The notes beneath the pieces were generated by a model. The model had not been told where the DNA came from and searched no databases. It saw only the letters and a program-made list of their open reading frames with translations. A stretch of 64,000 bases of DNA from Symbiodinium natans (Eukaryota; Sar; Dinophyceae; Suessiales; Symbiodiniaceae), in NCBI GenBank assembly GCA_905221605.1, contig CAJNDS010000049.1, positions 1-64,000 of the forward strand. Direction: 5' to 3'. Shown here piece by piece: positions 20,512 to 21,962 of this stretch. The position numbers and the translations under genes are program-made. Position 1 is the stretch's first letter, and each line of letters starts with the position of its first letter.

Positions 20512-21962
20512 ATGCAAGGCGAAATCGTGCGCCGAGGGGAGGCGCTCCTGGGCATCGCCAAGGAGGTGCAGTGCCGACGCAGGGTCTTCGGGATCAGTCT
20601 ACTTGGGGCGATCCTCTTGACACTTGGCCTCCTCTTCTTCCCACAGATCTTAGGTGGAGGCCGGGATCAAGACCTGCAGGGCGAGGAGAGACCCGGAATC
20701 ACCAGCCGGGCGCAGTTCCCAGGAGTTCCCGGACTACCAGGGCACCTCAGTGGTGTCAACCTGGGTGGCTGGTTGTGCTTAGAGGATTGGTTCTACTCCG
20801 GGGACACCGGCGTGCACGTCTCCAGCATTGATGAGGCCGGCCAGGGCGCCTGCCTTCCGCCAGCTGTGACGCAGTTGGAGAAACCTTGGCCTTCTGAGGG
20901 CCACTTGACCTTTAGGTTGAACCAGACGAAGGGGACCAAGTTCGCAATCAAGGCCCTGACAGCACACCGCCATTCCTTCATCGGCGAGACGGACTTGGCA
21001 GCCATCCGTGAGCTGGGGCTCAGTGTAGTCAGGGTGCCCATTACTTGGGCTGCCTTTGCGGATGCCCTCGTGCCTCTAGACCAGCAGGTCTACGGATCTC
21101 ACAACCCGCACACTGAAACAGCGATCGTCCCAGACCCCTTCTACAACGACCGGGCGGCCTTCGCAACGATCCCCCGCGACTGGCTGGCACAGCTGCTGCG
21201 GCGATGCGCCGAGCATGGCTTGAAGGCCCTCATTGACCTCCACGCCTTCCCTGGTGGGGCAGCCCTGGGAACCTACAACGGTGTGTGGCCTGACAAGCCG
21301 GCCTTTTGGCGGAATCAGACCAAGATTGGGAAGGAGCCCCTGACACAGGTGGGTCTGTGGATTGTGAGCTCGGCCGTGACATGGTTGGAAAGCCTCGATG
21401 TTGAGGCCCAGGCCGGCCTTTTGGGCCTCACCGTCATGAACGAGCCCGCCCACCTCAACTCGGGAGCAAAGTTCCTTGGGGCCCAAATGAGCTCTAAAAT
21501 TGGAGGCACCACAATAATTCCTAGTAAGGTATATGAACCATAAACCCTTTTGGAGTTCATTTCGTCCCCAAGGTTCGCAGAGGAGGCAGACGTGCTCAAG
21601 TGGCTGGCCAATGCGGCACAGATCTTCCGCTTGTCCACGCTGCCCAGCCAGGGTGTCAAGCTCTACATGCAGCTGATCGACACGGCCTTCCAAAATTTCA
21701 CAGAGACCGTCGTGCCATGGTTCTCCCAGACATTCACAGCCAGCGAGAGGTTGAGCTGGGTGGTTGCCGATCAACACTGGTACACAGCGTGGGACGCGGG
21801 CCATTGTGACATGCGCACGTCGGAGGACGGAGGCCTCACGTGCGACACGCCCTTGGAGACCATAAGACGTAAGATGCGCTCTTGCGCTACCGCCTTCTCC
21901 TCCAAGCTTCCAAGCCGCAGCTGGAGCGAGACAATTTTTTGTATTGAATATATATATATATA

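Follow-up and report, generated by a model that had tools for sequence, protein, structure and literature searches.

A short non-autonomous DNA transposon (MITE) most probably inserted in a GH5-like glucanase coding sequence through a 2-bp target duplication and is excised by the spliceosome as an intron, a reading to which we give a probability of about 0.87 on sequence evidence. It lies in the window, the whole 64,000-base stretch analysed (bases 1-64000 of contig C49; G+C 51.3%), and the genome searched comprises 759.4 Mb in 2543 contigs. The element limits, the family, the 2-bp duplication, the open joined frame and the insert-free paralogs can be read from the genome itself. The features at the locus are these.

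20701..21470, + strand: upstream part of a GH5-like, exo-beta-1,3-glucanase-like coding sequence, ending within a K codon (named from a weak phmmer match and own-genome paralogs)
21471..21572, + strand: predicted GT-AG intron, 102 nt, within the codon AA/G; the junction 21470/21573 restores the frame
21573..21933, + strand: downstream part of the GH5-like coding sequence, which begins with the element's terminal G
21474..21573, + strand: MITE/introner, 100 bp, CCTTGGGG...CCCCAAGG, delimited by terminal C/G conservation and the 44-copy family alignment
21472..21473, unstranded: left copy of the target duplication, TT (2 bp), placed by the register of 76 other family copies
21574..21575, unstranded: right copy of the target duplication, TT (2 bp), placed by the same register
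21474..21499, + strand: left terminal inverted repeat (TIR), 26 nt, 85% complementary to 21548-21573
21548..21573, + strand: right TIR, containing the predicted 3' splice site CCCCAAG/G

Without splicing, the GH5-like frame meets an in-frame stop inside the insert, and joined at 21470/21573 it stays open across the 378 codons examined. The earlier note had placed the insert within a continuous GH5 frame. The continuity holds for the joined frame, while the GH5-like identity depends on a weak phmmer match to the glucan 1,3-beta-glucosidases 6zb9 and 8z2w of the PDB (E about 2.4e-4), with no Pfam match of the product at 0.001.

On the left the predicted intron reaches three bases beyond the element, on the right it stops one base short of the element's end, and no other intron sequence remains. 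The donor G of this intron is supplied by the host base that precedes the duplication, the donor T is the first duplicated base and the acceptor AG is the element's. The corrected limits thus support the proposal that a putative donor comes from the host side and a putative acceptor from the element. As RNA, the predicted intron is a hairpin of -33.6 kcal/mol (z -3.97), and 1 of 200 shuffles was as stable.

Copies elsewhere in the genome were examined by joining the flanks of sampled copies and testing 50 of 66 junction-crossing frames against Pfam (a first set with 30 of 38 frames and a second with 20 of 28). The first ten frames were chosen by eye and the rest to fill in, and from three frames of the first set we cut residues that belonged to a neighbouring element copy or lay beyond the exon. 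In seven other copies the element breaks up a Pfam match that extends across the junction once the flanks are rejoined, with E-values of 4e-25 to 0.0026.

L046: Pkinase match across the junction, 8.4e-19
L046: DUF4116 match across the junction, 4e-25
L020: Fea1 matches across two junctions, 5.6e-6 and 0.0026
L047: Band_7 match across the junction, 0.0012
L055: Peptidase_M3 match across the junction, 0.0017
L060: AIM24 match across the junction, 1.2e-15

The Fea1 match at 0.0026 and those of Band_7 and Peptidase_M3 fall below Pfam's own cut-off, and the Fea1 match at 5.6e-6 is just above it. The first donor base is G in all seven (GTG, GTT, GTT, GAA, GAA, GAA and GAT; three GT-type and four GA-type donors), and the element is antisense in three of them, hence domain-containing copies occur in both orientations. 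A spanning match was found in 7 of the 21 G-donor frames versus 0 of the 29 non-G frames (50 tested; Fisher p 0.0012), and, counted over all copies, 46 of 152 outer bases are G. In the window gene and these seven copies the element ends are the inferred intron ends, as judged from frames and domains and not from gene models.

Three further matches were excluded from the spanning count: an ankyrin match at L053 that stops at the junction, an RCC1 match at L087 that is downstream only and a weak match at L064 that was taken as chance. The L053 copy (260-383) is old, with 73% identity, and its outer base is A with a donor AAA. It counts against the donor-G pattern. At L020, two family copies (1784-1893 and 2001-2111) stand about 110 bp apart in one Fea1-like gene, both antisense to it, with predicted donors GAA and GTT.

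The stop inside the insert would also be met if the insert were left unspliced, in which case the gene would be a recent pseudogene or encode a truncated protein. We judge this improbable because the 378 joined codons hold no other stop, despite the element's 10 substitutions per 100 aligned sites and its 11-bp deletion, and because a splice-compatible donor G is found in 7 of 7 copies within protein domains. Had the gene decayed with the element, 4.5 stops would be expected (P 0.011), or 2.2 at half the divergence (P 0.11). This stop-codon clock is only suggestive, and it would favour a gene that has not decayed alongside its element.

The joined window protein has two longer paralogs in its own genome, C2035:390618-391715, whose single open frame covers residues 11-369 (55%), and C1113:58289-58750, which covers residues 139-292 (56%). 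Both matches cross residue 257, the place of the insert. C1113 reads NEPAHLNAFTHFAKEEDILRWL at the site and aligns without gaps to the joined window protein, so excision at the predicted sites would give the C1113 length, and together with the open joined frame this supports the scarless removal predicted at first. C2035 carries five additional residues, the last of them about three residues upstream of the site, and no intron there. Among relatives from the same genome, both paralogs thus run through the site uninterrupted. Given the 55-56% identity, intron loss in the paralogs may be an alternative to an original empty site.

Dinoflagellate genes are intron-rich and the C1113 match falls in four separate pieces, both in keeping with an ordinary old intron that came first and in or over which the MITE landed later. 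Such a history appears very improbable, however, as no intron sequence lies outside the element beyond the three left bases and both paralogs are without an intron at the insert residue. We therefore prefer the insertion of the MITE itself in the exon.

The limits of the MITE differ from those of the earlier note, which had the element run from CTTGGGG to CCCCAAG between 4-bp duplications GTTC. The string GTTC/CTTGGGG...CCCCAAG/GTTC is present exactly at 21471-21576, but the C adjoining CTTGGGG and the G adjoining CCCCAAG are also the element's. Among 43 other copies, C stands left of CTTGGGG in 42 and G right of CCCCAAG in 42, and bases so nearly constant belong to the element. This set kept 44 of 47 matches, one of which is the window copy. 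Its ends were placed on CTTGGGG/CCCCAAG without those C/G bases and by an end-finding term that favoured 4-bp matches.

A larger set of 76 other copies gives the length of the duplication. It derives from 78 matches kept of 106 in the family, two of the 78 being the window's own; of the 28 dropped, 25 had weak ends, some with an exact left end, and 3 were at stretch edges. Because the ends were set here by matching CCTTGGGG/CCCCAAGG, the C/G counts of 75/76 and 72/76 are partly built in and the 42/43 counts are fairer. At the duplicated positions the left and right flanks agree in 68 and 65 of the 76 copies (28.8 and 28.4 expected), whereas at the positions just outside they agree in 23 and 23 (23.6 and 21.9 expected), which is chance. 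The 2-bp duplication is exact in 61 of 76 and mostly A/T (TT 18, AA 10, TA 10 and AT 9 of the 61), and 3 of the 76 copies show the full 4-bp flank match, where chance predicts 5.6. The proposed genome search for copies and flanking 4-mers thus recovered the family, but the flanks support a duplication of 2 bp (TT), not 4 bp. GTTC appears duplicated in the window because the host bases on either side of TT, G and C, are by coincidence the same as the element's own end bases.

A genuine 4-bp duplication, GTTC, around an element with the ends CTTGGGG...CCCCAAG would agree with the window copy alone, which has GTTC on both sides, and with the 4-bp duplications described for a published Symbiodinium introner family, but it is highly unlikely given the chance-level outer matches in the other copies and the constancy of C and G, seen although the end finding favoured 4-bp matches.

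The inverted repeat of the earlier note is present, but it was quoted too short and actually extends over the 26 nt listed above. The CCCCAAGG end is seen on both strands of the element copies inspected, and the family end pattern is CCTTGGGGAC(C/G)AAATGA. The quoted motif, a perfect 7-bp TIR with a 4-bp duplication, occurs 39 times in the window versus 1-6 times per dinucleotide shuffle (10 shuffles). It is not remarkable alone, since every shuffle yields some. When at least 21 of the 25 TIR bases must pair and the duplication must be present, 0 of 10 dinucleotide shuffles and two places in the window qualify, the second being 7053-7163, an inverted TTTAGGG repeat whose ends and 4-bp duplication imitate a TIR element. 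A chance palindrome was rejected from this pairing result and from the genome-wide count of exact ends: the exact 27-bp end CCTTGGGGACSAAATGARCCCTAAAAT is found 247 times in the genome and 0 times in the reversed control.

With the 106-bp query, the window and 40 other scored places were found, these 79-82% identical over nearly the whole query; 40 of the 1269 candidates received a score. Many similar copies thus reside in one genome, as is expected of an introner. The family consensus from 44 aligned copies is 111 bp long and forms a long hairpin, and 38 of the 44 copies are at least 93% identical to it. At 81%, with the deletion and substitutions given above, the window copy has diverged further than any other of the 44. 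Its insertion looks older than most of them, though the 44 copies are mostly best-scoring matches and young copies are thereby favoured. The window also holds degenerate relatives of the element.

35381..35486, + strand: degenerate element relative
near 33951-34062, + strand: further degenerate relative
near 15574-15682, - strand: further degenerate relative
near 13606-13716, - strand: further degenerate relative

These data support the classification of the element as a MITE with TIRs that acts as an introner. Like the MITEs of cut-and-paste superfamilies, it is short and without coding capacity and has TIRs and a 2-bp duplication. Tc1/mariner MITEs have a TA target duplication, whereas here TA makes up 10 of the 61 exact duplications, beside the TT, AA and AT counted above. 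The ends of CACTA/CMC elements begin with CACTA and their duplications are 2-3 bp; the ends here differ, being CCTTGGGG and not CACTA.

An autonomous partner was looked for with the outer 17 bp lacking the usual next bases, and by eye no transposase was seen in the approximately 160 bases at each of the 20 places found. Those places resembled shortened, nested, rearranged or TTTAGGG-expanded relatives of the element. A PF02992 profile search of the genome gave no match, and the same profile matched 0 of 14 control genomes as well. The exact 26-bp element end is absent from the IMG/VR viral contigs, from which records very near the source genome may be omitted.

Several other repeats and open frames accompany the family. 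Dozens of telomere-like TTTAGGG/CCCTAAA arrays are interspersed along the window, among them the following.

548-610, 721-813, 2580-2703, 5941-6063, 30913-31115 and 57745-57885: TTTAGGG/CCCTAAA arrays

Eight degenerate copies (L091, L093, L096, L098, L101, L102, L105 and L107) carry TTTAGGG/CCCTAAA-like repeats that take the place of their interior or enlarge it. The element contains AACCCTAAAA and so may seed such arrays. A tandem array at 49693-50406, with a 111-bp unit in 6.6 copies, overlaps an open frame of 291 codons for which Pfam gave no match, and the long open frames at 47073-49127 (684 codons) and 51689-53428 (579 codons) have no Pfam match at 0.001.

Published introners come close to this design. 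Gozashti et al. 2022 (PMC9860276, Fig. 2B) depict Introner family 1 of S. microadriaticum with TIRs and 4-bp duplications; as excerpted, the paper has this family carry the 3' splice site and take the 5' splice site from the target, gives an example of 115 nt (86725-86839) and states that most introner families leave the mRNA length unchanged. Family 1 and the window family are alike in length, in TIRs, a mark of introners of the DNA-transposon type and 26 nt long in the window copy, and in the element 3' and target 5' splice sites. Compared by description, they differ in that the duplication is 4 bp in family 1 and 2 bp in the window family (4-bp matches being no commoner than chance), with the donor G outside it. 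The same excerpts put the duplications of earlier TIR/TSD introner families at 3-9 bp, a range that excludes the 2 bp found here. The novelty is thus smaller than first suggested: the window copy is an introner of a known type, with a corrected anatomy and a duplication below that range. None of the four open-licence introner papers that a search brought up holds the phrase '2 bp TSD'.

Other accounts, likewise as excerpted, bear on the lineage. PMC11453091 summarises Roy et al. 2023 as finding introners in five dinoflagellate genomes and puts GC/GA-AG at 25-74% in Symbiodiniaceae, and the annotation of PMC8045281 permitted GA donors, so GA donors are already known in the lineage of the window. 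PMC10522408 drew on a catalogue of introner sequences from eight Suessiales isolates, and a comparison of introner content among Symbiodiniaceae is given in PMC11114475. By description, Roy et al. 2023 and the Suessiales catalogues share with the window family the introner-driven gain of introns, in many families. In Amoebophrya, Farhat et al. 2021 (PMC7789003) report introners with inverted repeats and with direct repeats at the exon/intron borders. These resemble the window family in inverted repeats, short direct repeats and hairpin-forming introns. They differ, in the parts of that paper at hand, by direct repeats of 3-5 nt, by varied non-canonical splice motifs and by inverted repeats among which no family-specific ones were detected, whereas one TIR defines the window family.

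From these elements we infer both the splicing and a transposase-driven insertion. The transposase would make a 2-bp staggered insertion and duplicate two mostly A/T bases. At a sense target G-N-N whose first N is T, A or C, the host G and the first duplicated base would form a GT, GA or GC donor. Owing to the inverted ends, CCCCAAG/G stands on both strands and would provide the acceptor AG in either orientation. The element's terminal G would take the place of the host G lost with the intron, and hence the spliced mRNA would be identical to the empty site.

More tentatively, at somewhat less than even odds, a near-palindromic MITE with a 2-bp duplication might serve as a two-way cassette that turns any G-W-W target into a scarless GT-AG or GA-AG intron, and the 4-bp duplications of related Symbiodinium elements may be the same 2-bp event plus a host G and an element C. 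Because splice-site selection fixes the neighbouring bases, the duplication length is to be measured on all copies and not on introns alone.

The window element offers a compact illustration of how a DNA transposon can give rise to an intron, in which the family, the target rule and the insert-free paralogs are all visible. Its corrected limits explain how scarless splicing may be possible in both orientations and where GA donors would come from, and they show which target bases would let an exonic insertion survive.
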